Shown here: positions 28,082 to 64,000 of the stretch, one piece after another
How the letters are laid out: the number at the start of each line of letters is the position of its first letter
Position numbering within the stretch: the stretch's first letter is position 1
NCBI RefSeq assembly: GCF_037975245.1
Contig: NC_092579.1
Coordinates: forward strand, 5,641,001 to 5,705,000
Source: Apostichopus japonicus
Lineage: Eukaryota; Echinodermata; Holothuroidea; Aspidochirotida; Stichopodidae
Length of the DNA: 64,000 nt
Direction of reading: 5' to 3'
Notes under the pieces: generated by a model
The model's database searches: none
What the model was told of the DNA's origin: nothing
What the model saw: the letters and a program-made list of their open reading frames with translations, nothing else
Made by a program: the position numbers and the translations under genes

Positions 28082-28108
28082 CTTGATCAACTAGTAAACT
28101 CTGGTAAC

Positions 28109-30784
28109 ATGTGGGTAACTCTGCCAATGTCCAAGATGGATGAATCATTCCGCTGCTCATATTTTCTGGTCTTGCTGTTGTTAACCACATCGACAGCGAT
28201 CATGGGGAACTCTGTCAAAAGTGAATTTCCGGAAGCTCTTAGCAGTCCTGCAGAAACTACTTCCTGTAGTAACATGGTGGATGGTAAGGTGGATTGCAGT
28301 CACCGAGGCTTGACGGCTGTTCCAAAGAATATACCAACAACTGTCCGAATTCTGGATCTAAGTCATAATAAGTTAAGCACGGTAACCCCAGATGCGTTCG
28401 ATGGTCTAAAGAAGCTTCAGATACTTAGCCTCTCATATAACACAATATCAAGAAAATCGATCGTGATGGAGTTGTTCAAGGACTTGGCAAACTTGGAGGA
28501 GCTCTACTTAAATCACAACCAGGTTAACAAATTTTATGAAAATGTCTTTACCAATCTAGGAAATTTAAAAATCTTAGATTTGTCAGACATGAATAATGGA
28601 ATCGTAAAACCAATTCCAAGAGAAGTCTTTGCACCGTTGAAGTCACTTACTGATTTGAGATTGAATAATGATCTTCTACCCTCCTTCAACTTCCTTCCAG
28701 AAGGAGCGTTACCAAAACTTCAGAAGTTGGAGTTAGCGCGAAACGGAATTTCTATCATCGCCGAAGGGGATTTTAAATACTTAGAAGGGACCAGTATTGA
28801 TAATTTAGACCTATCCGGAAATGACCTCACTAGTATAGATCCCTCTTGCTTTTCAGGTTTGAAATTATTAAATTTTATTAATCTTAAACAAGCAATCCAC
28901 AGTGAAGATGCAATTGCCCAAGTTGGGACTGCATTGAAAGAAGTCCACGTGACCAATATGAGCCTCTCAATGATCGGTTTAACAAACCTAACCGATGATA
29001 CATTTAATACGTTTGAAGGAGTTCCGCTTGAAGCGTTGGATTTGTCCTTAAACAATATCAGCCACATTGCTGGTGCACCCTTCCAATATTTGACCCAACT
29101 TGGGGAAATTAATTTGTACAAGAACTTTATCTCCAACATCGGTCCAGATGCCTTTAGTCATCTCGGGAATCTGAGAACCCTTGATCTTTCTAATAACTCC
29201 TTGACCAAACTCAACGAAACTACTTTCCAGAGTTTGACAGAATCAGTTCTGCGAGTACTATATTTGGAAATAAACCGCATTGAAACCATCAAGGCTGGTA
29301 CTTTTCATGGTTTGGGTCAGCTTGAGTTTTTAAAATTATCTAGAAACCGACTGACACAAACAATTTTAGGCCCGGAATTGGAAGGGATGCCTAAATTGAA
29401 AATTCTGGATCTTGGACTCAACAATGACATTTCCATCGGTGAGGATGCTTTCGCAAACGTCACGTCCTTAACAAAATTGTACTTGAACGTGATTGGATTA
29501 AAAACCATGATGGCGGGAAAGTCTCCTTTTCGACATCTGGTGAACTTGGAAATGCTCGATCTTAGCAACAACTCAATGAGTCGTATACTGGCGCCAGATG
29601 TCTTCAAAAGTCTTACCAAACTACAGGTATTATATCTACAACACAATAATTTGTACCACCTATGGGAGGACTCTCAGACACCTGTGGATTTTCTAACAGG
29701 TTTGACATCATTGCGGAAAGCCGATTTATCTTATAACGGATTTCATAAGATACCAGATGGTGCTTTTAAGAATACAACTCGTTTGCAGATTCTTCTTTTA
29801 GCACGCAACCAAATTGCCAATTTGACATCGTCATCTTTTGAAGGATTATCTTCCTTACGTGAACTACAATTGCATCATAATAACTTAAATGTTATCAAGG
29901 AGACCAGTTTTCATCCATTCCTGGAAAGCCTTCAGTCTCTGAGCATTAAAGAAAACCCGTGGCTGTGCAACTGTGAGTTGGAGTGGTTCCGCAAATGGAT
30001 TGATAAAACTGACGTCAACATCACCGATCTTGGAAAGACGACATGTGCGGACCCCCGAGGTACCTCCTTGCTTGATTTCTGGCCAAGTCCCTATGTCTGT
30101 GATGGAAAATTACGCCCAATGTACTATTACATAATTGGTGGCAGTGTTCTATCTGCCTTGCTTCTTGTGCTACTTCTTTGGTGTTGTCGCTGGCGTATCA
30201 GATACTGTTTACTGAGAGGCAGAGCTAGGCAGCGTTATCGGCGACGGGATGGGTACCGCATACTTCCGGGGAGAGATTCCGCTTACGAGTCTGATGTCTT
30301 CATATCTTACAGCAGCCTAGATAAAGGTTGGGTTGAAGGTATCCTCAGGCCGCAGTTGGATGGTACCGGAGCCGACCAAGAACGCTTCCATATCAATATT
30401 CATGATGAAACCTTTGTCGCCGGTGAGTCCATTATCGAGAACATCACCGGCGCTATCGATACCAGTCGAAAGACACTCTGTATCATCTCGAGAAATTACC
30501 TGGCAAGTAATTGGTGTAAATACGAACACGATGTAGCGATGTTTAAGCACTTTGGTGATAGAAAATGTCTTATTTTGATCCGTTTGGATGACGTCAACAA
30601 CAGTGAGCTTAAACAGCACGACCTTATCTACCAGGTAACTCAGCAAGATACGTACCTCAAGTGGCCAGGCGAGAGGGCCTCGTCCATTGAAAAGAAAGTA
30701 TTTTGGGAAAAGTTGAAGGAGGCTGTCGCCAAAAGAGAGGCGCCGAGATGTGGTAGTGGTTGTTGCTGCTGCTGCTGTTGTTAA
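28109..30784 (+). CDS. Toll-like receptor, complete, coding region in one exon
   Basis: 891 residues from the first ATG; M10 (28136) gives a tighter signal peptide (hydrophobic core about residues 18-32). A short cysteine-bearing N-cap (C53, C63) precedes about 20 leucine-rich repeats, then one LRRCT beginning NPWLCNCELEWF (from about 616). The membrane span is about 672-694, followed by a basic juxtamembrane segment. The TIR domain starts at about 726 (YESDVFISYSS, box 1), with NWCKYEHDVA in the middle and box 3 FW at 865-866. It has a single LRRCT next to the membrane, the vertebrate-type layout. Expected role: pattern recognition at the cell surface or endosome and signalling through TIR adaptors to NF-kappaB. 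Odd points: the BB loop reads HDETFVAG, lacking the usual RD and Pro, and the C-terminus ends in seven cysteines from a TGC repeat. Orthology to a named TLR cannot be assigned. Confidence 0.95.
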   Translation: MWVTLPMSKMDESFRCSYFLVLLLLTTSTAIMGNSVKSEFPEALSSPAETTSCSNMVDGKVDCSHRGLTAVPKNIPTTVRILDLSHNKLSTVTPDAFDGLKKLQILSLSYNTISRKSIVMELFKDLANLEELYLNHNQVNKFYENVFTNLGNLKILDLSDMNNGIVKPIPREVFAPLKSLTDLRLNNDLLPSFNFLPEGALPKLQKLELARNGISIIAEGDFKYLEGTSIDNLDLSGNDLTSIDPSCFSGLKLLNFINLKQAIHSEDAIAQVGTALKEVHVTNMSLSMIGLTNLTDDTFNTFEGVPLEALDLSLNNISHIAGAPFQYLTQLGEINLYKNFISNIGPDAFSHLGNLRTLDLSNNSLTKLNETTFQSLTESVLRVLYLEINRIETIKAGTFHGLGQLEFLKLSRNRLTQTILGPELEGMPKLKILDLGLNNDISIGEDAFANVTSLTKLYLNVIGLKTMMAGKSPFRHLVNLEMLDLSNNSMSRILAPDVFKSLTKLQVLYLQHNNLYHLWEDSQTPVDFLTGLTSLRKADLSYNGFHKIPDGAFKNTTRLQILLLARNQIANLTSSSFEGLSSLRELQLHHNNLNVIKETSFHPFLESLQSLSIKENPWLCNCELEWFRKWIDKTDVNITDLGKTTCADPRGTSLLDFWPSPYVCDGKLRPMYYYIIGGSVLSALLLVLLLWCCRWRIRYCLLRGRARQRYRRRDGYRILPGRDSAYESDVFISYSSLDKGWVEGILRPQLDGTGADQERFHINIHDETFVAGESIIENITGAIDTSRKTLCIISRNYLASNWCKYEHDVAMFKHFGDRKCLILIRLDDVNNSELKQHDLIYQVTQQDTYLKWPGERASSIEKKVFWEKLKEAVAKREAPRCGSGCCCCCCC
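30284..30720 (+). other. TIR domain of the TLR with degenerate BB loop
   Basis: Residues about 726-870. Box 1 (YESDVFISYSS) and box 3 (FW, 865-866) are intact. Box 2 reads HDETFVAG at 765-772, where the family consensus is close to HxRDFxPG; A771 takes the place of the proline known from mouse TLR4 as a signalling-critical residue. Confidence 0.85.
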
Positions 30785-36163: not shown

Positions 36164-39100
36164 TCAAGTATCTGGTTCAAGAAGTTTTGTTCCTTCTCCT
36201 ATTCTACCTTCTCTCTCTTTGCTCTCGGTGTTATTGTCAAAGAGGTTGAAGATGACGGGTAACCTGGCCAAGTGGGGATTATCCTCCTGGAGCTTCTTGA
36301 TCCAGAGATTTAGCCTCTCCTGGCTTCCATTACTGGTCATACACATGGCATAGACAGAACCCTCCAACTGGTCCTCAGATGGTGGTTTCATGTTTCTCAT
36401 GTTATAATCAGCTTCAAATTCTTCATCCTCGTCTTTGACTGAAAGCAAAAATAAAAACAAGGAAGATCAAGCAGGCTGAGTGAATGCAGATGTAAATCAA
36501 AATAAAACGGTTAGTAAACTGCTTATACACTAAAGAGCCTATGTGAGAGAATGTGTAAAAGTAAGTGGGCCTGACAGTCCACTTACTTTTACACATGATT
36601 GAAGATGTCACACTAGACTATTGCATCCTATCCCCCCATATCTGCTAAGTAATACTGTTATCAAATGAGGTCAAATGAGGTTGTGATTAACTCTCTACAA
36701 TGAGTTGCTAATATCCAATGAGGCTAAGTGAGGTCCTCAGTGACTATTTATGTCTATGATAGACTGTTACCTAATGTGGTAAAAGTGGGGTTCTCAATTA
36801 CTTTCTACTACAGACTGCTATCCAATGAGGTTACATGAGGTTCTACAATGAGGCTAAGTGAGGTTCTGAGTGACTTTCTATGTCTATGATACACTGTTAA
36901 CTAATGTGGCCAAAGTGGGGTTCACAATTACTTTCTATGACAGACTGCTATCCAAATGAGGCTACATGAGGTTCTACAATGAGGCTTAATGAGGTTCCCA
37001 TTGATTTTCAATGTTTATTATAGACTGTTACCCAATGGGGCTAAAGCAAGGCTCTCAATAACTTTCAATGGTTGACTGCTATCACATGAGGCTAAATGAG
37101 GTTCTCAATAACTTTCAATGTCTATTATAGTATGTTACCCAATGGGACTGAAGCAGGGCTCTTTCTATGGTAGGCTGCTATCACATGAGGCTAAATGAGG
37201 TTCACATTGACTTTCAATGTCTATTATAAACTTACCCAATGGGACTAAAGCAGGGCTCTTTCTATGGTAGGCGGCTATCACATGAGGCTAAATGAGGTTC
37301 TCAATAACTTTCAATGTCTATTATAGTATGTTACCCAATGGGGCTAAAGCAAGGCTTTCAATGACTTACTATGGTAGGCTGATATCACATGAGGCTAAAT
37401 GATGTTCTCAATAACTTTCAATGTCTATTATAGTATGTTACCCAATGGGGCTAAAGCAGGGCTCTTTCTATGGCAGGCTGCTATCACATGAGGCTAAATG
37501 AGGTTCTCATTGACTTTCAATGTCTATTATAGTATGTTACCCAATGGGGCTAAAGCAGGGCTCTTTCTATGGTAGGCTGTTATCACATGAGGCTAAATGA
37601 GGTTCTCAATAACTTTCAATGTCTATTATAGTATGTTACCCAATGGGGCTAAAGCAGGGCTCTCAACGACTTACTATGGTAGGCTGCTATCACATGAGGC
37701 TAAATGAGGTTCTCAATAACTTTCAATGTCTATTATAGTGTGTTACCAAATAGGGCTAAAGCAGGGCTCTCAACGACTTACTATGGTAGGCTGCTATCAC
37801 ATGAGGCTAAATGAGGTTCTCAATAACTTACAATGTCTATTATATTTTACCCAATGGGGCTAAAGCAGGGCTCTTTCTATGGTAGGCGGCTATCACATGA
37901 GGCTAAATGAGGTTCTCAATAACTTTCAATGTCTATTATAGTATGTTACCAAATAGGGCTAAAGCAGGGCTCTCAACGACTTACTATGGTAGGCTGCTAT
38001 CACATGAGGCTAAATGAGGTCCTCAATAACTTTCAATGTCTATTATAGCATGTTACCCAATGGGGCTAAAGCAGAGCTCGCAATGACTTACTATGGTAGG
38101 CTGCTATCACATGAGGCTAAATGAGGTTCTCATTGATTTTTAATGTTTATAATAGTCTGTTATCCAATGGGGCTAAAGCAGGGCTCTCAACAACTTACTA
38201 TGGTAGGCTGCTATCACATGAGGCTAAATGAGGTTCTCATTGATTTTCAATGTTTATGATAGTCTGTTATCCAATGGGGCTAAAGCAGGGCTCTCAACGA
38301 CTTACTATGGTAGGCTGCTATCACATGAGGCTAAATGAGGTTCTCATTGATTTTCAATGTTTATGATAGTCTGTTATCCAATGGGGCTAAAGCAGGGCTC
38401 TCAACGACTTACTATGGTAGGCTGCTATCACATGAGGCTAAATGAGGTTCTCATTGATTTTCAATGTTTATGATAGTCTGTTATCCAATGGGGCTAAAGC
38501 AGGGCTCTCAACAACTTACTATGGTAGGCTGCTATCACATGAGGCTAAATGAGGTTCTCATTGATTTTCAATGTTTATGATAGTCTGTTATCCAATGGGG
38601 CTAAAGCAGGGCTCTCAACGACTTACTATGGTAGGCTGCTATCACATGAGGCTAAATGAGGTTCTCATTGATTTTCAATGTTTATGATAGTCTGTTATCC
38701 AATGGGGCTAAAGCAGGGCTCTCAACGACTTACTATGGTAGGCTGCTATCACATGAGGCTAAATGAGGTTCTCATTGATTTTCAATGTCTATTATAGACT
38801 GTCACCCTATGGAGCTAAAGTTCTCAAGGCTGTTATCCAATGAGTCCAAACGAGATTCTCATTGCCTTTCTACAATATGTTGCCATCCAATGGAACCATA
38901 TGAGGTATTCAAAACTTTCTATGATAGACTGACTGTTACACAATCTGGCCAAGTTGGTTCCTCAATGTTTTCTATGATAGGTCAATGTCCACCTTGACCC
39001 CATTTCTGCATTAATGGATACATTAAGGCACTTTAGGACAGAGATACACAATTTTTTTTTTAGTCCACGAGGACTGAGCCATGACCTACCAGACCCACGG

Positions 39101-42100
39101 ACCCCTCAGAATTGATGTTCGGAATCCAGGAAAGTTAGTTTGGACCATTTATTTGTTGTTATTAAAAGAACTTGTTGGCAAGTTCTGAAAATGGTACATA
39201 TATATTTTTGGACACATGAACAAATCCTGTAACACACCCATCCACCCACCCAATTGGGTAGTGGAAGCCCCCCCTTCCACCCCCACATAGTTTGCAGAAA
39301 GTCACTTAAGGATACACCCATGCCTCATATGACATGTACATATACCCATTAAGTAACAATAAATTCCATCTACAAGTCACTTACCTATATCACCTTCTAA
39401 AGATTTCAGATATATTGCATCTGATCGTAACACATAGTAACCCAACTTGATATCCCGTAGCCATAGGTTGAAGGGCCCTTCAACAAATAGAGGTCGGTAT
39501 GGAGGATGCTGGGACAAAAGATCCTTCTGCTCTGGGCTTTGCGAAGATGTAAGGAATTCATTGGCATTAGTATCGGAAGATGAATCGTCGAACTGGAGAA
39601 CAAGAAAAGAAGGTGAAAACAGGACAAGGTGAGTAATCATCAAGATCAAGATTTTTTTATTAAAGAAATTGGAAAATTACAAACTTCAAAACACTGACAG
39701 GAAAATTTAACCAAGGAGAAAGAAACTTCCAAGAAGCATAAAAGCATCACCAGAAGGCTAGCATAGAAGCTACTTATCTATACCAGTGTAACTATGGTTA
39801 CCTTATGTACTAATGGAAAATATGAAATTTAAGTATGGAAATTCAATATAGGCAGCTTAGGCAATGTCAACAAACTAATATCTCTTAAGACCTAAGCAAA
39901 TTTTTTTTGGAGAAAAATTAGATTTTTGAAATAGAAACGTAATTCTGATGAGAACTTCACACAACCTCCTTATCTGGGGAATGCATTAATGTTGGTGTGC
40001 ATTCATGTCAAAACACACGTTTAAATACCTCAAGAGACTGTTAATGTTAAAGGTATGCATCGACACTTCGTCTAGCCCTACAATATGTTTATTACAGCCT
40101 TAACAAGCTCACACCTAATTTGCATACAAACATTTAGGCTGTCATTGCAATTATCATCATCAAGCAGTACTACTGGGATGGTTTAATTCGTCTCAGGTTA
40201 ATACCTCCTTCACAACGGTCAACTCTGCCTCGTATTCACAGATTCTCTTCAAACCAAGCTCTGATAACAGGACGGGGTCAGAAGGCAATTCAAATGGCAG
40301 TGGGAACGGGTTGATGTTCCTGAACTTGGGGAACCAATACATGATCCTCTGGTATTTCTTCACTGGGTGAGATTGACGGCCAAACACATCCAACAAAAGC
40401 TTCTTCGTTTCGTTGTTTGGCATAATTTCTATGGTTGAAAAGTCAAAGTGTAAGAAAAGGAAACTTCCATGAAAGAGAAAATGGCGAAGGATTTCGTATG
40501 AAATGAGATTGTGTTCCGGAAAAAAATATAGATCTCTCAAGCTACAGAGACGTCAACAGGCTTTTATTCTATTCTTTTCTTTTTTTGAAAGGATACTGAA
40601 TTCAAGTGATACAAGAGACTTCCGAAATTAATTAAGATTATACAAAGAATGGTTTGTAGGACTTAAAGACCTTCTTTATTGGCTCCAATTTTAACATACT
40701 ATAGCTAGGAAAGTTTGGAAACCTACAGCTAGGAAAGTTTGGGATAACGTAATCGACCTGCCACGGTCGTAAATCGACCTCAGGCGCTAACAATTACCCT
40801 GCATACAGTAGCTTCTTAACACCATTAAACACTGTGTGGAAATATGTTCCTGTCTACAGTGTAGTTAACCATACAGAGTTAAGAGAGGTCATATTACGTT
40901 CACGGCAGATCGATTATGTGATCTCAAGAAACTTTATCATGATAGCGTGCTTTAGTTGGGGCCTGCACAGCAGACCTTTAACAACTTTGTTCTACATTGA
41001 TTTATGCTCTCTGTGTATTAAAAACATTCTAAAACTGTATGAATGATTTTACAAGTGACTTCATAGCAGATTCAAACTTACTATTATCTTCCAGTTTTTG
41101 TAAAACCTTCAAGGCCACTGTCTGTTGTTCTGGGAAATGGTTAAATATCACTTGCCAGACGTTCTTAGCGACGTAAACCCCCTTAGGGAAGATATCCAAT
41201 AATTTGTTGTAGGCGTTAATGTCTTTTTCCACATTAAAGTGAGGCATGTACTTCAGAGCCGTCTCGATGAACTGCAAGTGACCCCTCCTTCTTTTATCGA
41301 CCTCACCAAATGTCCTAATAAGTTGGTAAAATGTTTCCTTGTCAGCAGATTTATTAGCTGCTTCTTTGAATAGGTTTCTAGACAGCGAGAGAGTTCTTTT
41401 GCTCTCGGCTGATAAATGACTTTCCTCTTGTTGTTGTTGTTGTTTAGACCCTGTTGCATCTTCCTGAGATAAGATGGTGGAGGTATGAAGTTCCTGCCTA
41501 AATGTAACCTGCAGGAAGGAGTGAAGTAATGAAACATAACAATTGTATAATATACAATAAATCAATTCATTTCAGTGTCCACAGATTTGTAATGACCAAG
41601 TTTTACTTTAATAACGTAGAATGTGAGGTTTTCAATGGCTGCAATTTACTTAGGCAATTAGTTATTTGTTGATGATTTGTTAATTGTCAGAAGTACATTA
41701 CAAAATGTTATATTACATTTCAACACATGTACTGTATGTGAAGGGCCTATGTACAGTAGTATTGACTAGCAATGCTTATAGTAATGAAACTTTAGGAATA
41801 TTTGCGAAGTAGACCACTTTTGCCACACAAACAACAAAAACAGTACTGAATAAAATCAAGACATTGAGAATATGTGATGTCCTCATTACAACTGCTCTTG
41901 TTTTCATTTTGTTGTCAACATCTCTATCATGGTTCCTGTTACTCATTCTTGAAATATTTTGAAAACAACATGAAACTGGCTAATTAATGTACTGCATTGT
42001 ACCTTGTATTGTAATTTCAGCTTAAGTTTATTCTTACTGTAAGTTAAAGGGTGTGAAGGCTCGCGCAAAAAGAAACGTCTAATGCTGGTAATCTGACCTA

Positions 42101-50732: not shown

Positions 50733-50954
50733 TCAGCTGGTGACGTTAAAGAAGAAGTTGACGGCTCTGTTAACGTCATAATCAGCTGCTCTGGCCAATC
50801 TCCTAAGTTCCTCGTTGGGTATTTCTTCTCCGAGGACCTCTTTAAGTTGTTGGACAGTTTCTTCCAGTCTGGACGCGTCCACGTGGACGCTCTCGCCCCC
50901 TGCGACCTCCTCATCAGATGAGCCCGAGTAACTTGGCAGCTGAAGAGGTGCAAT
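50733..50954 (-). CDS. Last exon of the BTB-UBA gene: UBA-like domain
   Basis: 73 codons plus stop. An acidic lead-in (GSSDEEVAGGESVHVDASRL) precedes a three-helix pattern, LEETVQQLKEVL, NEELRRLARAADYDVNRA, VNFFFN. The spacing and the final AVNFFF are typical of UBA/CUE-type ubiquitin-binding folds. Acceptor AG is at 50955-50956. Confidence 0.75.
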   Translation of the reverse strand: MAPLQLPSYSGSSDEEVAGGESVHVDASRLEETVQQLKEVLGEEIPNEELRRLARAADYDVNRAVNFFFNVTS

Positions 50955-53900
50955 CTGAAAGGAAATACACAGGAAACGTGTTTAGTTTCATCCCTTCTTT
51001 ACTACTCATGACAACACAACAGATCACGGCAGCATTCTCTGATTATTTCATGCTTTAAGTCCACTGAGTGGGAGGAGAGGAGATGGGGGGTGGGGGGGGG
51101 CTGGGTGTTACTTGTTATCAGAAAATAATACACATCCATTCTTAGCAAAGCAAACCAATAATGACTACCAGCTATAAAGCATACAGCATCTTTACTTTCC
51201 TGCTGAGGTGTTTTAGATTTGTGCACTAGAAGATTACTTCATAACTCATACAGAGAAGAAAGTGGCGGGGGATGGGTGAGGGGGTAACCCCATGTCATCT
51301 ATCTTATGACCATAAATTAGTTGGACAGTAGAAAGGTGTAAACTGTGATAACTTTGAAAAAAGACTTAGCGCTATCAACTGGGTGATTTTGTAATGTCAA
51401 CTTCATCTATTAAATGTGTTTAAGCCTAAACGTCTAGCAGTCCATCAGATATATCGTCTTTATTAGTAAAACTCATCATCCAGTTGCCTAATAAATGCTT
51501 TTAGAGTTACCTGTATGCAGGTAATCAGTTGCAATGGATTTAATTTCTTACACATGGTCCAGTAATCTACTACATATATCATATTCTTATTCCTGGTCCA
51601 GCAACTTTATCACATGTATCTCATACTTACCTGTAGTCCAGTAACTTATTGCAATGGATTTCAGTTTTTACACATGGTCCAGTAATCTACTATATTCTTA
51701 TACTTATTCATATTCTTATTCCTGGTCCAGCAACCTTATCACATTTATCTCATCATACTTACCTCTAGTCCACTAACCTATTGCATTGGTTTCATTTTAC
51801 ACATGATCCAGTAATCTACTAATTATATCATATTCTTATTCCTGGTCCAGCAACCCTTCTACATGTATCTCATACTTACCTCTAGTCCAATAACCTATTG
51901 CATTGATTTCATATTTACACATGGTCCAGTAATCTACTACATATATCATATTCTTATTCCTGGTCCAGCAACCTTATCACATTTATCTCATCATACTTAC
52001 CTCTAGTCCAGTAGCCTATTGCATTGATTTCATTTTACACATGGTCCAGTAATCTACTACATATATCATATTCTTATTCCTGGTCCAGCAACTTATCACA
52101 TTTATCTCATCATACTTACCTCTAGTCCAATAACCTATTGCATTGATTTCATATTTAAACATGGTCCAGTAATCTACTACATATATCATATTCTTATTCC
52201 TGGTCCAGCAACCTTATCACATTTATCTCATCATACTTACCTCTAGTCCAGTAGCCTATTGCATTGATTTCATTTTACACATGGTCCAGTAATCTACTAC
52301 ATATATCATATTCTTATTCCTGGTCCAGCAACTTATCACATTTATCTCATCATACTTACCTCTAGTCCAGTAACCTATTGCATTGATTTCATATTTACAC
52401 ATGGTCCAGTAATGTACTACATATATCATATTCTTATTCCTGGTCAAGCAACCTTAACACATTTATCTCATCATACTTACCTCTAGTCCACTAACCTATT
52501 GCATTGGTTTCATTTTACACATGGTCCAGTAATCTACTAATTATATCATATTCTTATTCCTGGTCCAGCAACCCTTCTACATGTATCTCATACTTACCTC
52601 TAGTCCAGTAACCTATTGCATTGAATTAATAATTTTAAGTCCAGTACAGTAATCTACTACATATATTATATTCTGATTCCTGGTCCAGCAACCCTTCTAC
52701 ATGTATCTCATACTTACCTGTAGTCCAGTAACCTATTGCATTGATTTCATTTTTACACATGGTCCAGTAATCTACTAATTATATCATATTCTTATTCCTG
52801 GTCCAGCAACCCTTCTACATGTATCTCATACTTACCTCTAGTCCAGTAACCTATTGCATTGAATTAATAATTTTAAGTCCAGTACAGTAATCTACTACAT
52901 ATATTATATTCTGATTCCTGGTCCAGCAACCCTTCTACATGTATCTCATACTTACCTGTAGTCCAGTAACCTATTGCATTGATTTCATTTTTACACATGG
53001 TCCAGTAATCTACTAATTATATCATATTCTTATTCATGGTCCAGCAACCCTTCTACATTTATCTAATACTTACCTCTAGTCCAGTAACCTATTGCCATAT
53101 GTTACGTTACTACTAGTGTTTCATTGATCTATTTCATGTATCAAACACTTGGCTTTAGTCCTACAAACTGTTGCAAAAATATTACATTATTTAAACATAG
53201 TCTATTAAACCTAGTTTATGTATCACACAATTACCTCTAGTTCAATAATCTACCCTAATTATTACCTTATCACACAAGGTTCAGTTACTTATTTTTATAT
53301 ACCACACGCTTACCCCTGGTCCAGTCCTGAGGTCCATTAAGCCCGAAGCTAAACCCTGAACGTCACGGCTGTAGTCTGAAGAATCGGAAGAATCAGAGTC
53401 GTACTGGAGACCCTTGTACCTGTGCACTGGATCACAACTATCGTCTTGTCTACAAGTAAAGAAAAAAAATGCTACATTTCAGCTATTTCAAATTTTGTTG
53501 GAAGTCTTGTATATCAGCATCAGTTAAGTCACAAACAAATTGTTCTTTTATGTAGACTGTTCCCGACCTACATTCCAACTTGAAGTAGATTATAAGGCAC
53601 GGTAGAACTGGTGCTAAGGTTGTGAGGAGACAGGTACGCGAGGAGCAAAGTTAATTCCAAGAATGTGTTATGGTTGAGATTTCCATTGCCACACATTAGA
53701 GCAGGCGTTCTCAATTAATTTTCTATATATAAGAAATACACCTTGAGAGAGAAATGTAACCTCACACCCAGATGAGCAATGTGTGCGGTAAGCCAGAAGG
53801 CTACTCATGCCATAAGCTAAATGGTCTACTTGCCATATCAATGCAAGATTGTGGGCCGACCCTTTTCTTTTGTGCAGGCAGAATTAACCTTTTTCCTCGG

Positions 53901-56900
53901 TTTCTGAGTATGACCTATAGGCTACCTAAGGAAAACATCTGTGTCAGTGAGAGAGACACTGCATCTTTTGTATAAACACACAACTGATGGAACTTGAAAC
54001 AATAGGATAATTACTCTAAATCCCATACCGCCATATCTATCTATTAAGAACAAACGTACCACTACAGTCACATCACTGTAAGCTTGTGGTCGAGCCCTGC
54101 GTTCTGTTTATGTTATTTGTCTAGTACAAGTCATGGCAGCTGATTTACAATTTTTTTTTGGTATAACGCAAGAGGGCTCAGGTAGGCTAAGAAGCGCAGA
54201 CAACTTTTTGCATATCTTCATATGCGTAAATCAGAGTTCATATTTATTCATAAAACGCACGGTTGCATTGCAGATCAAATATATTGGCCGCATGAATTGA
54301 TTTCGTTTAAACAGTCCAACTGAGAATTTTGGTAACCAATTCATCTGGAATAATTCCTTTATTCCTGTAGATGATGCGTTGGTTATGTATAATCTTCTGT
54401 TTAAGAGGAATGTATTATATGTCAGCGACCTGTTTGATCAGTATGGTAATCCAATGTCGTATGATAGGTTCATGCCCCGATTTCAGATTAATAGATTCCC
54501 ATTATCTTTATACTTTGGTTTAATTGATTGTATTCCCCTGGATTGGAGAAGGACTGGCTGTATAACAGCTGACTCTATTAATCACAACTGCAATTGGTTA
54601 AACTTGTATTACCAAGAAACCTGCACTTGGTTTAACTTGTATTACCAACAAACCGACAGTATTAGTAAAATGGAATAATGCTGTTAATGATTTACGGAGA
54701 ACGACTGGAAAGGTTTTCAAATGCCGAGTCATAGCCAGTGTTCCTTCTGTACAACACAGGTTGAAAGTCTGGAGAACTTATTTTGGGATTGTCAGTTCAC
54801 GTGAAATTTATTTTAGAAGTGGAAAACTGATTTTTAAGAAAGCAATTTTTCTTCCCAAAAAAAGATATCTTTTAAGGCTTTGGAAATGGATGTATCCATT
54901 CATATACATTTTTATGTGAAAATTCTACATGTGAAAAATTCTATTTACCAAACTAGTCACAAGAATCCTTGTATCGAGGAATTCTTTCTTAAATTTAAGT
55001 TTGCAATAAACGTTGAAAAGTACCTCAAGTCTCCTCAGTTTAACTGAAGTCAACAAAGAAGAATTAGAACAAAGTTAATTTTATGCAAGTTCAAAATGCT
55101 TTCTCTAATTTTGTTGATCTATTTCATTAGCTGTTGTTTCATCTATTTTTTGCATAAATAATGATTTGCATGTCCATTCAAGCTTTTGGCTGTGCCTCTT
55201 CCTGTGAGTTATAATATTATAAATATTAGTATTACGATATTTTTCTATTTTCATTCTGTACCAGAAAGCAGATTTCGAATAAATAAAGGGAAACAAAGAA
55301 AGAGGGATACCAATTTGAATGCCATTCTGGTCACAATTTTCCTTGTTCTTTATACTCCTTGGAGCACACATCAAGAGAGAAACATATTGTCAGACCCAGA
55401 TAAGCAATGTGCAATGAGGTAGGCTAGAAGACCACTCATGCTTAAAACATAACGGGCACACTTGTCAGAGTAATGCAAAATTGTGGGACACTGCATCTTT
55501 TTTTACAAAGACACAAAGTACTGGTACTTGAACCATATGAAACTTTCCTTGCGCTTCCCAAGGTTTGTTCATAATTTCAAAATGCCTCTCGGACACAGTA
55601 ATAAACTCATTTTCTCATTGTAGTTAAAGCAGCCTATTGCATCCAGTTTGAAGAACACTCTCTAATATTTGAAAATAAAATCTCACACTAATACATACCA
55701 CTAGGTTGACTATGAAAAGATTTATCTCAAATTTTTATAAACACAGTGAATACTGGCTAATGAAGGTTCACTTTCTGGAGAAAATGTATTTCAGTTCAAA
55801 CGATTGGCATCTAATTTGTGGTACTGCTTGGTAGGTACATTTGGTAAATATGGCCACTACACACATTTATTTCTGGTACTTAAACAACACATGCAAAATG
55901 GTTTTCCAAACTTCTTTGAGTGGCAACAGCCCAGCCTGATACAGACCAGCTAGATACAGACCAGCCTGATACAGACCAACCAGATACAGCCCAGCTAGAT
56001 ACAGACCGACCAGATACAGACCAGCTAGATACAGACAGGACAGATACATACCGGCCTGATACAGACTGGCCAGACAGACCGGCCAGATGCAGACTGGCCA
56101 GATACAGACCAGCTACATACAGTTAGATACAGACTGACCAGATACAGCCCAGCTAGATACAGACCGACCAGATACAGACCAGCTAGATACAGACAGGACA
56201 GATACATACCGGCCTGATACAGACTGGCCAGACAGACCGGCCAGATACAGACCACCTAGATAAAGACCGGCAGATACAGACCAGCTAGACACAGACCAGC
56301 CAGATACAGACTCGCTAGATTAGGACCAACTAGATACAGACCAGCTTGTGAAAAGTGACCACTTCAATCTTGAAAATGTCTTCTGGCTTCATTCAGAGCA
56401 TTCAATGTAGTTGTAAGACTTTCCAAACCTACCTGTGGCGGCTGACCAGTTTTGTGACTTCGTTTTGTAAATTTTCTGGGAGTTCCTCAAAGTCCTCTGC
56501 TTGAACCACCAATGGATGCTCGATCACATAGCTGATAGATGCTTCCTAGGCAGAGAAAAATAAAGAAAATGGAGAAAATATGATCAATATAAACCTAGGG
56601 AATAACTTAGACTTCCAGTTTTGTGTAGCAGTTTTTAAGTCTCTGAATTATTTCTCATATCGCGCACTATCGCACTATGGTTCCTGTCTACAAACAGCAC
56701 TATGCAGCTTTACTTTGGTATAGCATATTTGCCTATATATTGTACAGCAGAGTTGCACTACTCCCTCAAGTCTTCGCTTCACTAGCATTCCTTACTATGC
56801 TATAAGTTGTCACGTCACCCTTCGGGACTGTGAAAATTTACTTTCGTAAAACAGGAGTACTGCTAGAAAGATAGACTCACCTGTGATCAACCTTGCTCAT

Positions 56901-59900
56901 GTAACATTTGGGATCACCCACTGAGTCTTTCTTTTATCTCAAACACATTTGATTGTCTATTTTAGCAAAAAAAAATCTCTCCTGCAGCTTGTAGGGGGGT
57001 GGGGTGGGGGGTCAGATCAATTTGTGGTACAACACAAGAGTTGTATTCCCAAACGATTATGGCAGGAATAAATGTTGAAAATTCATCGGAAAACTGGCTC
57101 CTTTTGTTCAGAGGGGGAGACCAGGGAGATGAAGATATGAGAATGAAGGAGTTTATCTTACTCTCAGCGTAGATGCATGGAATTGATCAGCAACGCTGAG
57201 AAGAAATAGAACAGACTCCTCATCTAGCCTCGATTTTAGAGCACCTTCGCAGACTTTCTTCAAGTTATCCATCTGATGAGGGGAAAAAAACGAAAACCAA
57301 AAAAACCCAAGTATCAAATCAGGGATGAATCAGTTATGATAAAGGACATTGATATGACTTATTTTCTGTTTTTGTTTTCCTCCAAAAGTATTGAGAAAAT
57401 GATGAAGACAATATTTGAAAATTTGACCTGTTTTGGTGTAGGATATGGGATTTGAATGTGACAACCTTATTTTGAAGAGAGACTTTTTATTTATTCTGAT
57501 AGTTTCCCCGCTTCATTACCTCATTATCTATTGCTAACAGCCATCATATCTCCAAACTGGTGTATAAGTTTAAATAACTGATCTTTCTTATTTTGGTATT
57601 TTATATTCTAATACAGTTTTCCCCTTGTCATTACCTCATATCTATTGCTAACAGCCATCATATCTCCAAGCTGGTGTAAAATTTTAAAATTACTGATCTC
57701 TCTTATTTAGCTCTTTTATTCTGATACAGTTTTCCCCTCTTCATTACCTCATATCTATCGCTAACAGCCATCATATCTGCGAGCTGGTCTATGCTCATAG
57801 CACCGGTGTCTAGCTGACCGCTGTAAAGGTATCGAACAAACTGCACAAACAGGTCTGGATCTATATCGTGCACTTCTATTTTCCTGCAGAGGAACGAAGC
57901 AAATGACAAAGAAAAACAAAATATGTAACAATTCAGATTTGGCTAACGTACGACAAGCAAAAACACATCCTGTACATGACGTCCATTATCAAATTCACAT
58001 TTATCTTTGCATTAAAAATTAAATTCCAGGCTAGTATAAAAGAACCAAAAACTTCCCACAAACTGATGGAAAGTCACTCCTCATCAACATTCAATGGGCA
58101 TTCTTTCATAGTGACATGTTCTCTGGTAAAAATGATGACCCATAAATACTTGCTAAAATAATTATTTCTATTCCTAATCATCTTTTCACTGGTTAAATAT
58201 AGAAATGAGATTTCTGTCAGTATTTGTAAATTTACCGGTATCCATGGCCATAGGTGAACACTTACTTTCTTTCCTAACCATACAATTAAGTGGACGATAT
58301 TGATATGGACAAATACGTACTTTTATTTGCATAATCATATCGTTTCACTGGTACAGATAAAGATGTTGACCTGTCTTTGTAAACATAGATTACCTGGTAA
58401 AGATGGCGGTGGGAGACCATTTTTCTTTTCTTAATCATACACTTACCGATAAACATTGAGATGTGCTATTTTTTCTCCCGGTAATCATAATTTGACAGAT
58501 GGAATTTATTTGTTATTATTCATTTATTGCTAAAGACTGAGATGAGGGCAATAGATACTTCCTATTCATGATAGTAATTTTCACAGATAGCATTTCTATT
58601 CGTAATCAATCTCTTAGTGGTGAACACAAGAGATGTGAGACTCCTTACTTGTCTATAGATTCTCTCATGCCACTCATTAAGGCTCTCCTAAACCAGTCAC
58701 ATCTGGCTGCGATGATTGCACGATGAGCTTTCAGCACTCTGACTTCTTCTACCCTCTCGCTACCCTGCGTCTCCACCGGCGTACCACCCTGAGTGTGATC
58801 CACGATTATGTCTGCTGGCTCCTCTGAAAGGATTTTACCAGAAAAGTTCTCCGTAACAATACCTGCTCATAATTAGAATATATTTCTCCTACCCTGGACA
58901 TGATAGCAAAGGAAGGTGCTGCACATCAAGAATTTTAAACCTTCTAAGAAAATAAATTAGGTGAAAGTGATATAAATTGTCACAACACAAAGCAGCCAAC
59001 AGTGGTCTAAAATCAAGTCAAACTTTGATCAGATTGGTTTAAGCAGCAGTACTGGAAGCCACCAAAATGAGAATCTCAAATAAAAATTAAGAATCTATTT
59101 ACTTGAGATTAGAATCAATTTATTTGAGATTAGAATCTATTCACTTGAGATTAGAATCTATTTACTTGAGATTAGAATCTATTTACTTGAGATTAGAATC
59201 TATTTACTTGAGATTAGAATCTATTTACTTGAGATTAGAATCTATTTACTTGAGATTAGAATCTATTTACTTGAGATTAGAATCTATTTACTTGAGATTA
59301 GAATCTATTTACTTGAGATTAGAATCTATTTACTTGAGATTAGAATCTATTTACTTGAGATTAGAATCTATTTACTTGAGATTAGAATCTATTTACTTGA
59401 GATTAGAATCTATTTACTTGAGATTAGAATCTATTTGCTTGAGATTAGAATCTACTTATTTGAGATTAGAATCTATTTGCTTGAAATAAGAATCTATTTA
59501 CTTGAGATTAGAATCTATTTACTTGAGATTAGAATCTATTTACTTGAGATTAGAATCTATTTACTTGAGATTAGAATCTATTTACTTGAGATGAGAATCT
59601 ATTTACTTGAGATTAGAATCTATTTACTTGAGATTAGAATCTATTTACTTGAGATTAGAATCTACTCACTTGAGTTAGCACATGACTCCTTGAACCTCTC
59701 ACGATGTATTAAAATGGATGATGAAAAGCTCTTAAGCAAAAGTGAGAAAGAAAACAAAAATTTCTTGTTTCTGGACAAGAAGGGGGGTGCGTGAGAGGTA
59801 CTTACCTTTGACCTGAATTATTTCAAAGACCATGTCTGTGTCTTCCCCAGAATCAAAGAGGTCTGATAAAAGTCTGGCTAACCTGCTCTCTCCTGAGGTT

Positions 59901-62900
59901 GGGGGAGTCTTCCATGACTCCACCCCTGAATACTGTCAAAGTTGGGAAAGAAAAATAAATTAATTACAATTTGGAAGCATTTTTCTACGGGCATAGGTGG
60001 GTGTGCGATTAATCCTGCAGGGCACAGTGAAATTTTGCACCCAATCCGTGGGTGTTTAATGACACACAGATGTTCCTACTCCCGTGACAAGATATTGTCA
60101 TTGGAAATATTTACATAGGAAAGTAAAGGTCTGCCTTTAATGTTGAAATATTCTATAACAAGCAGCAGGCCTGATACTTACAAAACTCTCCACAAAATAC
60201 ATATTCCTGTCAAATGACTGAATTATATTTCTGTGATATTATAAGGTTCCACATGAAGCATTAATGGCACTTAAGACCTTGAAGGCCACAGGAAATTTTA
60301 CACAGGGGCCCTATGTTGCTCACCAGTGCTCGATGGGGTGGTCCATTATATGACCTAGGGGCATATCAAGTTATCGGCCCTTCTCGGCAAGACCACTTTA
60401 AATACCGTTTAGGGGTAAAATTTTCTTAGTTTACTCATATTCGCATGTGGCATAAACCCAATACGAACAACCCCAAGATGTAGGGATTTTCATAGATAAG
60501 AAAATCGTTAAATTCATCAATCAATGAATCAATCACAAAATTGTTGACAAGCCTTAAATACATGAAAGAGGTAAGACATACCAAAAGAGCATCACTGCTT
60601 AATCTATCTCCACTGCCACCAGGTGAGGCTCCTTCATGGCTGGTACCTGGTTTGTGGCCAACAGGTTCCAATAGGCCCAACGCTGAGGCAGTCTGGGAGA
60701 AAGAATCTCGATGTACAAGGTCACAGCACTTTTTAACGACAGGTTGCAGGAAGGCTTTATTGGCAGATGCTTTCTGGAGTCCCCAAGCCTAGGGTAATCA
60801 AATAGTAGTGTTGTGCTGATATTGCTAATATCGGTTTTGGCCGATATCTGACACTCCAATCCCGATATCGGCCTGATACCGATACTTTTAAACGGCCAGA
60901 ATGAAGGTCAAATCACACTTTAAGTCATGCATTAATACATAAAGTATCAAACATTATAATCGGGTATAGTAAGTTACTATCGTTTGTACAACTCACAAAC
61001 AGTAACCACTTGTATGACTCTCATTTCCGGAATACAGTTAGTAAATTAGGAAAAACCAAAAATAAGTGCATATTCTATAACACTAGTCCCTAACCTCTTT
61101 TTAAATCAACGATCATATTCCCCACCAAGTTTATATGCTTGAAACTGTGCTACCATGTTTTTTTTTTTTGTGGAATAACACAAGCCTATCCTTCCTGTCA
61201 CATCCGTTGTATGATTATGACTCTGTTTGACCAAATATGTTCAAGACTGCAAGTTTTATACAAACTGTCATCAAGAGGAGCCACCGATTTCTAAGCAAAA
61301 ATGTTAAGGCATGACACCACGATGAATAAAAGTGATTTCATGTAGATATATGGCGTCGGTTGACATGATGGGTGGTAGTACCTGTCTATCCATGGTTGAG
61401 ACTTCACTGTAAATATTACACTGTACAATTAAATATTACAGTAGGCAAGAAATCAATACTGAAAAGATGGCATAGGTTAAAACATTGTGGGTACCCCATT
61501 AGTTCATGACTATGAGTAACTCACTGGGTTTTCAAATATTATAAAACGCCCACCTATTGGGTTGACAGATATGACAGAGACAGACTTAGTGGGTCTTAGT
61601 GGGGACATCTGCTAACCCAATGACTGACTATACCTACTAGACAATGTATGATGGTATGCTGTATATCAGTACTGAAAGAGATGGCATGACCTGTACCTAT
61701 CTATCCATGATGGGAGACCAGACTAAATGAAATGAGACACGAAAACGTCAAACAATGAAAAAAGAAATTCTCACCACTTTTGATGTGGCCATCTTGAAGT
61801 AAAACTTCCACTTTCTCATTGGTAGATTTCCATAGGCCTCACTTAATCTATTAGCTTTTGATAAAACCAAAGGAATCTGAAATGTACGGAAGACAAAGAT
61901 TTCAACAGTAAATTAGTCAAACAAAAAATTAGCACATATATATATATGCAAATGTCGTCATCTTTTGTAAACTAGGGGAATGTAAGACTAAAAGCAGGTC
62001 ACACAAAGTCAGTGTGATGTCTTTATAGTCACATGACCACTTGAAACAAAACTTCATTGTTAACTTATTGAATGATTTAACATTTGCTGGGTAACAATCA
62101 AACATGTGAAATCTTACAAGGAGTAGATACAGTAAAAGTTATTTTATGAAAGCAAACATGTAAATTTCATTTCATTTCATTCATCATTTCATTGACTGAG
62201 GTTGTGGTCTAGTAGTTAACTCAATGGACTGGCGACTAAGGATTATAGTTGAGCGTAACTGTCTCTCTTCACTGAGATGTATACATGAGGACCAGATTGG
62301 TAACTTGTAAATGAAGCTGTCTGTGCTGGATTGTAGCTGTAACCTATGGGCCATCTCTCAGGGGGAACATAATGGACATGGTGCACTGTAGTGTCCTAGG
62401 AGAGACTCTTCCAATTGTACACACTACCAAGCACGAATGTGACAAGTTGCAAATGGCAAGGAAATAACTTTAGTACAGTCGTGTGAAGCGGCCTTGGTCT
62501 TAGCCTTGAAACCTTCACCTTTGTAACTTGCTCGTCCTGTGAGGGTGCCTTGCAAGAATGAATAAAACCGCATCAATGATGCAGTATCTCAATACTGGAA
62601 GTTTTCATTTTGATTCCTAATTTCAAATCTTCTCTGTCTCTACAATTATCAATATCAATCATGGTACAACAAATACATAACTTGCATTTTTGCTACTTTG
62701 CCACGAATAGTCTCTGCAGGTTACACTTAATCCTGCTAATCTTGCCTTTAGCGCTCATTGCCTGTTAGTCGAAAGAACGACATTGCAAGGTTTAGTAATG
62801 TCACAGAATACCTAAGAACTTGTTTTTTATGTGGTATCCTTCATCTTAGGTCAGTCTCTGTTGGACTTTTTGGTCATATAGTTTGACGTCAATGACAACA

Positions 62901-63720
62901 GCCAAATTAGAAGAGGCGCATAACTCGACCATATTCTTGATGCCTGCCTTGAGAGCTAGGCCTATTGACCTATGTATGTTACTGTAGTGGTGACTACCAT
63001 CAAAACTGTGTCCATTTCTAGATATCAAAACAACCCACGTTTTTCCATCTCAATTTTTGGACATGAAGATTTCATGGATTTATGACTTGGAAAAAAATAA
63101 TGTAAAAGAAGATTACAAGTTTTTATATGCAAGTGATGGGTGGCCTCCTCTTCCCCTAATAGCCACCTCAGTTCCTCTCCATTTTGTTATTTTATTTTAA
63201 TTCTTTGTACATTTGATGTCAAACATTACAGGTTCAAAAGAAAGCTAAACATACTTCATATAACCTTATACATCTTATATCCTTATAAATAAAACATAAC
63301 CTTATACAATTTTTATAGTCTTATAAAAGTTGTGATGCTATGGCCGGCTCCTCTTTTATACGTACCCATCAAACAAACTTACCCTGGTCCTTCCTAGGAA
63401 AAGCTGTCTGAACACCAGTACAATGCTAATGTGGCTATCACTGAAAGCCTAATAGGCCTAGGCTTATATATATATATTTTTTAAATGCACTAGGCCTACA
63501 GTAAGTAGCCTTCAGAAATACAAGAATGTGTATAAGTAATTATACAAAATACATGAAGGGCAATCAAACAAACTTATCATGGCCCTTACTCTGAAAAGCT
63601 ACCTGAACACCAGTACTATCCTTAAATGGAATTCAGCAGTACAGAATGTAATTAGCATGCAATACACTAACACCTCGCGTGCCTAACTACACTACAGAAA
63701 TTGGTCGCGAGCGTAGCCAT
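50733..63720 (-). CDS. BTB/POZ protein with C-terminal UBA-like domain, 11 exons
   Basis: Exons in gene order: 63674-63720, 63383-63407, 61775-61876, 60582-60788, 59806-59932, 58649-58823, 57748-57883, 57162-57272, 56433-56545, 53314-53449 and 50733-50954 (stop at 50733). Every junction is AG/GT and in phase; 466 residues. The BTB domain is at about 158-273: DTDMVFEII, a 25-30 residue insertion, LKAHRAIIAARCDWFRRAL, VQFVRYLYSGQLD. A BACK-like helical stretch follows (LADMMAVSDRYEMDNLKKVC, about 262-350), then an acidic Ser/Asp linker (QYDSDSSDSSDYS). The UBA-like end is at about 423-463 (LEETVQQLKEVL, LARAADYDVNRAVNFFF). BTB proteins often recruit substrates to CUL3 ligases and UBA domains bind ubiquitin, so a ubiquitin-linked adaptor role is likely but inferred. 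No named orthologue recognised. The first two exons are the least certain. Confidence 0.8.
51490..53335 (-). repeat. Minisatellite seeded from an exon-intron junction, with decoy donors
   Basis: Monomers of about 40 bp share CTGGACyAGrrgTAAg and are arranged in 120-bp trimers, about 13 trimers in all. The array runs directly from the 3' edge of the exon at 53314-53449, whose end GACTGGACCAGGG/GTAAGC has the same motif. Monomers next to the exon are most diverged. In each trimer one monomer reads CTAGAG/GTAAGTATG, a near-perfect donor sequence. Confidence 0.85.
53735..55535. repeat. Direct duplication of about 200 bp flanking LINE debris
   Basis: Blocks at about 53741-53995 and 55363-55535 share GAGAGAAA, CCCAGAT.AGCAATGTG, GGCTA..AGACCACTCATGC-like, TGCAA.ATTGTGGG, GACACTGCATCTTTT and GAACTTGAAAC-like segments in the same order. 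The LINE remnant lies between them. Confidence 0.6.
54311..55030 (+). pseudogene. Tx1/L1-type LINE ORF2 C-terminal remnant
   Basis: A broken frame reads LLFKRNVLYVSDLFDQYGNP, then YDRFMPRFQINRFPLSLYFG, LIDCIPLDW, the post-reverse-transcriptase region of marine-invertebrate L1/Tx1 LINEs. Near 54730, in another frame, a knuckle-like CSFCTTQVESLENLFWDC follows, with the usual His replaced by Asn. Stops and frame shifts show it is dead. It is antisense inside an intron of the BTB-UBA gene. Confidence 0.7.
55930..56340 (+). repeat. Tandem array of GATACAGACCAGC-like 14-15-mers
   Basis: About 27 short units alternate GATACAGACC with AGCCT, AGCTA, AACCA or GACCA spacers. A block of about 110 bp starting at 55983 is repeated almost exactly from 56137, so the array also grew by block duplication. 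It lies in the 3 kb intron between exons 53314-53449 and 56433-56545. Confidence 0.9.
57484..57800 (-). repeat. Exon 3' edge and donor triplicated, period about 114 bp
   Basis: The 3' end of the exon 57748-57883 (encoding QLADMMAVSDRYE, then donor GAG/GTAATG) is followed in gene order by two further copies in the intron, with donors at about 57634 and 57518. They encode QLGDMMAVSNRYE-like sequence and keep the donor but have no acceptor of their own. Confidence 0.85.
59095..59672 (+). repeat. 21-bp minisatellite TTACTTGAGATTAGAATCTA, about 27 units
   Basis: Units are nearly identical. Because 21 is a multiple of three, long heptapeptide-repeat reading frames (such as RLESIYL) appear in two frames, but they are by-products. 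AGATT/AATCT within each unit can pair. It is intronic in the BTB-UBA gene. Confidence 0.95.
60806..60900. mobile_element. Possible transposon terminus rich in CCGATATCGG palindromes
   Basis: TAGTGTTGTGCTGATATTGC is followed by four GATATCGG / CCGATATC motifs, a pattern of subterminal repeats similar in kind to the KATNIP hAT-like element. No partner terminus was found. Confidence 0.35.
62200..62500 (+). mobile_element. Diverged copy of the V-core-type SINE
   Basis: The head TTGTGGTCTAGTAGTTAACT and the block CTCTCTTCACTGAGATGTAT match the order of the copy at 3340-3612, but the CCTTGGGCAAG part of the core is deleted. It lies in an intron of the BTB-UBA gene. Confidence 0.5.
63383..63407 (-). 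CDS. 25-base microexon of the BTB-UBA gene
   Basis: AG at 63408-63409 and donor AGG/GTAAGT. It carries one base plus eight codons (QLFLGRTR) and makes the first exon (phase 2) compatible with the 61775-61876 exon (phase 0). A decayed copy of the same segment lies at about 63577-63601 with its donor GT changed to AT. Confidence 0.5.
63674..63720 (-). CDS. Candidate first coding exon of the BTB-UBA gene
   Basis: ATG in a good context (CGAAAATGG) encodes MATLATNFCSVVRHAR, basic and free of acids, then donor GAG/GTGTTA. It may be a targeting peptide or simply a short leader. CCAAT (63747-63751) and a GC box (63770-63780) lie just upstream, implying a very short 5' UTR. The start is inferred from frame compatibility only. 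Confidence 0.45.
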
Positions 63721-63746
63721 TTTCGTGTAGCTGTTATGAGTCATAG

Positions 63747-63780
63747 CCAATCTGCTACAAAACAGACTTGGGGGCGGGGC
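63747..63780 (-). promoter_or_regulatory. CCAAT and GC box near the BTB-UBA start
   Basis: GCCAATC and GGGGGCGGGGC stand out in an AT-rich neighbourhood, 27-60 bases upstream of the candidate ATG. They would fit a TATA-less housekeeping promoter. Confidence 0.4.
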
Positions 63781-64000
63781 TTAATCATCAAAAACGGACC
63801 TTTTTACTAATAGTAGAGGCGGCAGCTCAGTGTTGTTTTAAGAAAGAAAAATCATTTAACCATCAAATAAGGAAATAAAAGCCATAAAATGTCATATACA
63901 GGTAGTAAAATTCTTATTAATACCTACCTGTAAACACCAAATGAAAGTTTAAAATGTTAATAAAATATATAATACATAGGACCCTATCTTAGACGATACC

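Follow-up and report, generated by a model that had tools for sequence, protein, structure and literature searches.

The last intron of a BTB-domain gene contains a minisatellite which was probably born by tandem duplication across the exon-intron junction and which carries decoy 5' splice sites; these decoys would occasionally attract U1 but would seldom be used in splicing. We give this reading a probability of about 0.66. The homology between the exon edge and the repeats, their register, the number and strength of the decoys, the poverty of the array in acceptors and the stop codon met when the exon is lengthened are all observed directly. All sequence comparisons were made within the window, that is, the whole 64-kb stretch of DNA that was analysed.

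Host gene and exon models

Exon models were drawn by eye from reading frames and GT/AG signals and comprise 14 introns in three genes; they leave out an intron of the third gene (~ 6470 to 6087), the other genes and the upstream part of the BTB gene (60000-64000). The host gene occupies ~ 59935-50733 on the minus strand and encodes a BTB domain (PF00651, E 1.1e-10) and a C-terminal UBA-like region. The query for the BTB match was the peptide of the exon at 57748-57883 together with the preceding exon, including a few residues of read-through intron at both ends. The best solved-structure match of this gene is SPOP (2.3e-16), which spans residues 58-179 of the query with the inferred exon join near residue 131. 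In the last exon the match to Pfam UBA_Rad5 (E 6.7e-05, 23.4 bits) is under the curated cut-off of 27. In the exon model the frame of the penultimate exon is open and in phase with both the last exon (...GPG/IAPLQ...) and the upstream exon. The coordinates of the features are collected in Table 1.

By its gene content the window is animal DNA; the other genes encode a TLR-like protein (LRR + TIR), ECSIT (Pfam ECSIT_N, 7.7e-33) and a calcineurin-like phosphoesterase. The TLR-like gene (28058-30784) and the gene of the Toll-pathway protein ECSIT (36164-41571) are found ~ 6 kb apart on opposite strands.

Table 1. Features of the BTB gene discussed in the text, with window coordinates; a slash marks a splice junction
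Feature	Position	Strand	Basis or detail
Penultimate coding exon, ending ...GLMDLRTGPG/	53314..53449	-	Real donor GGG/GTAAGCGT directly after 53314
Exon-edge repeat unit, ~ 13 last exon bases and ~ 24 intron bases, A slot	53290..53326	-	Profile HMM, E 0.0049
Worn, apparently older block, five monomers read as C-A-C-A-C, 65-75% identity	53089..53289	-	Free-choice unit alignment; 53289-53096 against shuffles, z 8.5
Homogenised core array, A-B-C order	51524..53088	-	120-bp trimer, ~ 240-bp hexamer/superperiod
13 decoy donors	51623..53077	-	Base before GT: 53074, 52956, 52836, 52718, 52598, 52481, 52360, 52241, 52120, 52001, 51880, 51763, 51631
Degenerate distal array edge with weak CAG/GTAACTCT site (base before GT 51511)	51500..51523	-	Matrix score 4.51
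Last coding exon, C-terminal UBA-like region	50733..50954	-	Reading frame; Pfam UBA_Rad5
BTB-domain exon, 3' edge giving the second case	57748..57883	-	Real donor GAG/GTAATGA
Second exon-edge duplication in the BTB gene, 2.7 copies of a 113-bp unit	57490..57788	-	TRF; local alignment

Architecture of the array

The ~ 40-bp tandem repeat occupies ~ 51500-53326, on the sense strand, in the last intron (53313-50955) of the BTB gene. The preliminary description had placed it at 51490-53449, a span that also takes in the exon body, which is not homologous. Between 53088 and ~ 51524 we count 39 monomers of 38-48 bp, which fall into three types with 13 copies each: type A contains CTGGACTAGAGGTAAGTAT, type B CTGGACCAGGAATAAGAAT and type C CTGGACCATGTGTAAAAAT. 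The mean identity of the 13 A copies is 85%. TRF reports a period of 120 at 51701-53095 and of 238 at 51548-53095, in line with the homogenised 120-bp trimer array proposed earlier.

The stretch between the exon and this core has a different character. Slot identities, taken outward from the exon, are 0.65, 0.65, 0.75, 0.71, 0.65, 0.66 and then 0.95. The monomers were first thought to decay with distance from the exon, but these values describe a uniformly worn block followed by a sharp step to 0.95. In the C-A-C-A-C reading of the block the fourth slot (53167) is assigned by a narrow margin, A scoring 22 and B 18. We read the worn block as an older A/C dimer array, adjoining a younger and homogenised A/B/C array. 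At the distal end, the sequence from 51521 to 51327 overall hardly exceeds shuffles (z 2.1, 2/60).

Homology between the exon edge and the monomers

A profile HMM of the 39 monomers finds its top match outside the array at 53325-53309, that is, at the exon edge, while the runner-up in the window has an E of 4.6; with this profile no further copy of the monomer family was found elsewhere in the 64-kb window. Aligned with the tandem consensus, the sequence from 53330 to 53096 scores 100, a value reached by none of 60 shuffles (29.7 ± 5.5, z 12.8). The same alignment applied to DNA outside the array gave a z of 1.1 for the exon body, -0.7 for the upstream intron and 2.2 and -0.3 for two control introns. 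Hence, the homology of the 40-bp monomer with the end of the exon, on which the preliminary description was built, is upheld by both the profile and the consensus alignment. Furthermore, CTGGACCAGG has a single occurrence outside the array on either strand, and this is the exon edge at 53324.

When the donor letters are removed, 81 of 20000 random k-mers of the window score at least as high as the exon edge (draws falling inside the array, ~ 3%, were skipped). In a plain local alignment of the exon edge to its own intron, the score is reached by 1 of 100 shuffles. Considered by itself, the exon edge would thus count as modest, moderately significant evidence of homology; the case becomes strong because the register and the continuity with the worn block add to it. 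Indeed, the C-A-C-A-C alternation makes the exon edge fall in an A slot. The homology ends ~ 13 bases into the exon. The unit at the exon edge scores 14 against A, 16 against B and 8 against C, with GGTAAG in common with A and GGACCAGG in common with B; given the near-equal scores for A and B, it seems to be ancestor-like and not nested in one type. Just before the donor, at 53314-53340, a weak internal duplication can be read by eye, ATGGACCTCAGG followed by ACTGGACCAGG, which is possibly the first slip of the process.

Strength and position of the decoy donors

All 13 intronic decoys are found in A monomers, ten of them as GAG/GTAAGTAT and three (52956, 52718 and 51631) as CAG/GTAAGTAT, the latter complementary to the U1 5' end at 11 of 11 bases. 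The ten bases AG/GTAAGTAT, likewise complementary to U1, are present in 13/13 A monomers and absent from B and C. One monomer in each trimer was initially given as GAG/GTAAGTA; this fits 10 of the 13 trimers, the other three reading CAG, and the real donor was given correctly.

The sites were scored with a 5' splice-site matrix and by pairing with the U1 5' end. Matrix scores, which are relative only, range from 7.54 to 8.58 for the decoys against 5.35 for the real donor, and the U1 duplex has -12.6 (GAG) to -14.0 kcal/mol (CAG) against -9.2 kcal/mol. The earlier count of about 13 decoys stronger than the real donor is therefore matched. By duplex energy, all 13 decoys surpass all 14 inferred real donors of the three genes (best -12.0); in matrix score, the best inferred real donor (7.70) ranks above the GAG form (7.54), and the donor of the penultimate exon ranks sixth among the 14.

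The decoys are spaced 117-132 bp apart. Sites scoring above the real donor amount to 7.17/kb at 51500-53312, compared to 0.35/kb on the rest of the minus strand and 0.30/kb on the plus strand. The 10-mer AGGTAAGTAT occurs 13 times in the window, always within the array, and nowhere else in the 64 kb. In the worn block both A-slot donors are broken (GAG/GTAATTG after 53235, GCCAAG near 53150) and, with these two nearest donors lost, the real donor is followed by an intact decoy only after 240 nt. All 13 A monomers have the same donor block, a constancy that might reflect its being kept: 0 of its 10 columns vary compared to 9 of the 29 others; the homologous columns vary at 1 of 10 positions in B and at 6 of 10 in C. 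This column variation among monomers does not establish purifying selection on the block (p 0.08).

Predicted use of the decoys

In the array core, none of the 136 AG sites is preceded by at least 70% pyrimidine, the maximum being 0.53, while the 14 inferred real acceptors range from 0.63 to 0.89. Outside the core, the worn block has 17 AG sites, the best of which (53160, pyrimidine 0.58) is just below the weakest inferred real acceptor at 0.63. Combined with the first decoy, this weak acceptor could delimit a pseudo-exon of 87 nt. Apart from it, and given that the core has no pyrimidine-rich acceptor, a decoy could only lengthen the real exon. Lengthened to the first decoy, the exon measures 376 nt, which is not too long for exon definition, and its frame closes with a stop 31 nt past the exon (53283), which leaves 209 nt up to the first decoy junction. 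According to the rules of exon definition and nonsense-mediated decay, such lengthened products should be rare and short-lived.

Masking of the decoys by RNA structure was considered and rejected. Their predicted unpaired fraction is 0.50 on average compared to 0.43 with shuffled flanks, and a 696-nt piece is predicted to fold less stably than 30 shuffles (z +1.7). The real donor, for its part, has a predicted unpaired fraction of 0.33 and so would be less accessible than the decoys, an advantage for the decoys that speaks against their silence. Of the three alternatives put forward earlier (a trap for U1 snRNP, a source of alternative donors, suppression of the decoys), the last is best supported, in a passive form with an acceptor-poor array and a real donor that comes first; structural masking falls away. 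Since the array is without a pyrimidine-rich acceptor and decoy use meets a stop, the decoys would most likely be mostly silent. Some rate of decoy use is possible, by analogy with what is said of the downstream units of IFI6.

Other exon-edge duplications and minisatellites

We compared 28 inferred exon edges (14 donors and 14 acceptors), each with its own intron and with the 13 others. A score of at least 34, a threshold picked after the scores had been seen, is reached by 3/28 own-intron pairs and by 0/364 pairs of an edge with another intron; at 32 and above, the numbers are 5/28 and 2/364. The edge of the main array scores 34 in this survey, barely above the rest.

The second case is found in the same gene at exon edge 57748, with a local score of 116 against its own intron (shuffles 19.8 ± 3.3, 0/100). 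The intron holds two further copies of the last ~ 41 coding bases together with the donor, the exon-derived part being identical at 38/41 and 36/42 positions. The donor 10-mer GAGGTAATGA is present three times in identical form, as the real donor at 57748 and as intronic copies after 57635 and 57520, so that the three donors are 113-115 nt apart. Copying went from exon to intron: BTB sequence is encoded by the copy in the exon, with the SPOP match extending across the junction with the following exon, whereas translation continued from the exon into the repeat runs into a stop, and an indel is present in the third copy. In sequence terms, this second case is a young instance of which the direction is clear. 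Together with homology and register, it makes the growth of the main minisatellite from the 3' edge of its exon, as the preliminary description had it, well supported.

The third case is an acceptor edge (5158) in another minus-strand gene, with a diverged copy at ~ 5342-5271, ~ 184 bp upstream in its own intron (local score 48, 0/100 shuffles). Weak own-intron signals were observed at donor 6087 (32, 1/100), acceptor 7362 (28, 3/100), acceptor 50954 (26, 4/100) and donor 40205 (26, 5/100).

A 107-bp minisatellite is present in an ECSIT intron at 36716-38820, with 13 GTAAGT on the sense strand and 0 on the antisense strand. Eleven of these sites read CCATA/GTAAGT, and the 9-mer ATA/GTAAGT is also the inferred real donor of the upstream ECSIT exon (41082). 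An exon-edge origin of this array was not detected from edge 39385, of which the best local score (32) is reached by 8/100 shuffles and the match, near 36627, falls outside the array. At 36551-36596, not far from the ECSIT acceptor inferred at 36438, two perfectly inverted 18-bp repeats flank a 10-bp loop; they may form a small hairpin or be what is left of a short mobile element. Two more minisatellites are found in introns of the BTB gene, at 59090-59678 (21-bp x 28) and 55926-56346 (15-bp, 158-bp superperiod), and neither contains GTAAG on either strand.

An enrichment of arrays at exon boundaries in the window was also considered and rejected: 2 of 13 arrays overlap a boundary, compared to a random mean of 1.26 (P 0.36). 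The 13 arrays were hand-picked from 34 TRF rows by merging overlapping rows and leaving out the remaining short-period or simple ones. As this overlap is at chance level, the simplest view is that a minisatellite-rich region sometimes seeds an array on a splice site. In an exact search, the 21-mer of the A monomer gave 0 matches in viral and 0 in bacterial/archaeal contigs, which says little as it covers viruses and prokaryotes only. For relatives of the BTB gene in viral contigs, 16 pattern matches were obtained, none of which was confirmed.

Discussion

In the origin that we propose, the founding step would be the tandem duplication of a ~ 40-bp segment spanning the 3' edge of the exon and the 5' splice site. 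Growth would first have taken the form of an A/C dimer, present today as the worn block beside the exon; a B monomer would then have been gained and the 120-bp A-B-C trimer would have spread and been homogenised deeper into the intron. That each core A monomer carries a donor would follow from the founding unit having held one, and these copies would have drifted to, or kept, a near-perfect match to U1 while the real donor is mid-range. U1 would bind the decoys at times and splicing to them would be rare, with the real donor first and no pyrimidine-rich acceptor that would allow a decoy to delimit a separate exon. As decoy use lengthens the exon into a stop, products that leak would be truncated or degraded. 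We infer the order of growth, the silence in vivo and the decay of leaked products. The direction of copying in the main array rests on the ancestor-like unit and on the analogy with the second case.

It is rather unlikely, in our estimation, that the array works as a functional multi-donor array of the IFI6 type, in which some decoys are spliced, the exon is lengthened and array length or splicing factors tune the output of the gene. Either a truncated protein with the tail VSVWYIKISN would be made, or the mRNA would be marked for nonsense-mediated decay. Such a function would agree with 13 decoys that are all intact and outscore the real donor, with their greater predicted openness and with a stop that precedes any decoy junction by at least 209 nt, as expected of a poison extension; it also has a precedent in the two downstream repeat units used as donor sites in IFI6, according to the part of the source cited (PMC4526556). 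However, 240 nt separate the real donor from the closest intact decoy, the two A-slot donors in between are broken and the core has no pyrimidine-rich acceptor. The reverse direction, in which the minisatellite would be older and the exon end would have moved into its first unit, adding the last codons (TGPG), appears unlikely. The unit at the exon edge is not nested within a single type of monomer and the second case in the same gene went from exon to intron, although the halt of the homology ~ 13 bases inside the exon would suit such a shift, as would the Pfam matches, which start at residue 68 at least of the two-exon peptide and leave the exon end uncovered.

Other proposals give the U1 sites a role of their own. 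That the array is maintained as a U1-binding device, a graded reservoir of competing donors made up of the 13 near-perfect U1 sites, the two nearest A-slot donors being broken, in which repeat number sets the balance of full-length product and poison extension and length polymorphism tunes the BTB gene, we hold to be quite improbable. We consider very improbable a docking array that would retain U1 snRNP on the last intron and prevent premature polyadenylation (telescripting) or assist in exon definition, with splicing at the sites being of no account. The 10-11 bases of U1 complementarity at 13 sites and nowhere else in the 64 kb would fit docking, and so would an AATAAA at 51464, 167 nt past the last decoy; yet one AATAAA (with ATTAAA at 51544) is unremarkable in an A+T-rich intron of 2.4 kb, and selection on the donor block reaches only p 0.08. 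Least credible of all is that the decoys silence the real donor and lead to regulated intron retention, in the manner of the pseudo-5' splice sites of the Drosophila P element. The precedent exists (PMC7776569), but in the cited part of that source the pseudo-sites are upstream of the intron and act with PSI and hrp48, whereas here the decoys are located downstream, the closest intact one at a distance of 240 nt. Birth by tandem duplication at the exon edge, with decoys rarely spliced, is hence the reading that we retain.

The choice of one donor among many strong candidates is an open problem, for which this intron is a natural experiment: 13 donors that score above the real one are present on the same strand and in register, without a pyrimidine-rich acceptor among them. 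A second experiment is provided by the same gene, with its three donors of identical 10-mer placed 113-115 nt apart. The host gene is thus suited to testing to what extent donor strength yields to position and exon context. Furthermore, the two arrays seem to be an early and a late stage of minisatellites founded on an exon edge, and the main array seems to show how such donor-carrying arrays start and grow.

Comparison with known systems

The human IFI6 (6-16, G1P3) minisatellite is described by the title of Turri et al. (1995) as providing multiple splice donor sites. Two of its downstream repeat units serve as splice donor sites in the account cited (PMC4526556), and minisatellites are said to interfere with gene splicing with reference to the IFI6 work (PMC3618361). 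The preliminary description, which knew of no described system of this form, has to be corrected on this point, as the kind is already known from IFI6. The IFI6 repeat unit is of 12 bp and spans the exon end. In both systems the unit contains a splice-donor consensus (here in 13/13 A monomers) and the array includes or abuts the gene's own exon donor (here through a homologous exon-edge unit in register). Unlike in IFI6, the unit here is of ~ 40 bp in trimers of 120 bp, only one of the three monomers carries a donor, the intact decoys begin at 240 nt from the real donor and they outscore it. A search of open-licence full text found no other description of such an array, which may exist in print.

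Intron gain by tandem genomic duplication, as presented in the part cited (PMC4974935), resembles the present case in that splice signals are copied inside a gene. No new intron from tandem duplication is evident here, and no usable acceptor was found in the array core. In the AGGT model, the duplicated unit supplies a donor and a usable acceptor and gives rise to a new intron, whereas the units described here have no pyrimidine-rich acceptor (0/136 AG) and the decoys pile up in an existing intron. The third intron of the Drosophila P element is preceded by two pseudo-5' splice sites for which protein partners are named, in the portion cited (PMC7776569). In both cases donor-like sequences could bind U1 without splicing, but here the sites are 13 in number, intronic and repeat-borne. 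The intronic VNTRs of hTERT, with units of 36 to 61 bp and a divergence of ~ 10% among the 61-bp repeats, are minisatellites of a similar kind, and an exon-edge origin is not mentioned in the cited part of that source (PMC2915984). Compared to the kind known from IFI6, the array described here stands out by its higher-order structure, by decoys that exceed the real donor in strength, by the worn stretch that separates them from it and by the apparent presence, within one gene, of two stages of a single process.
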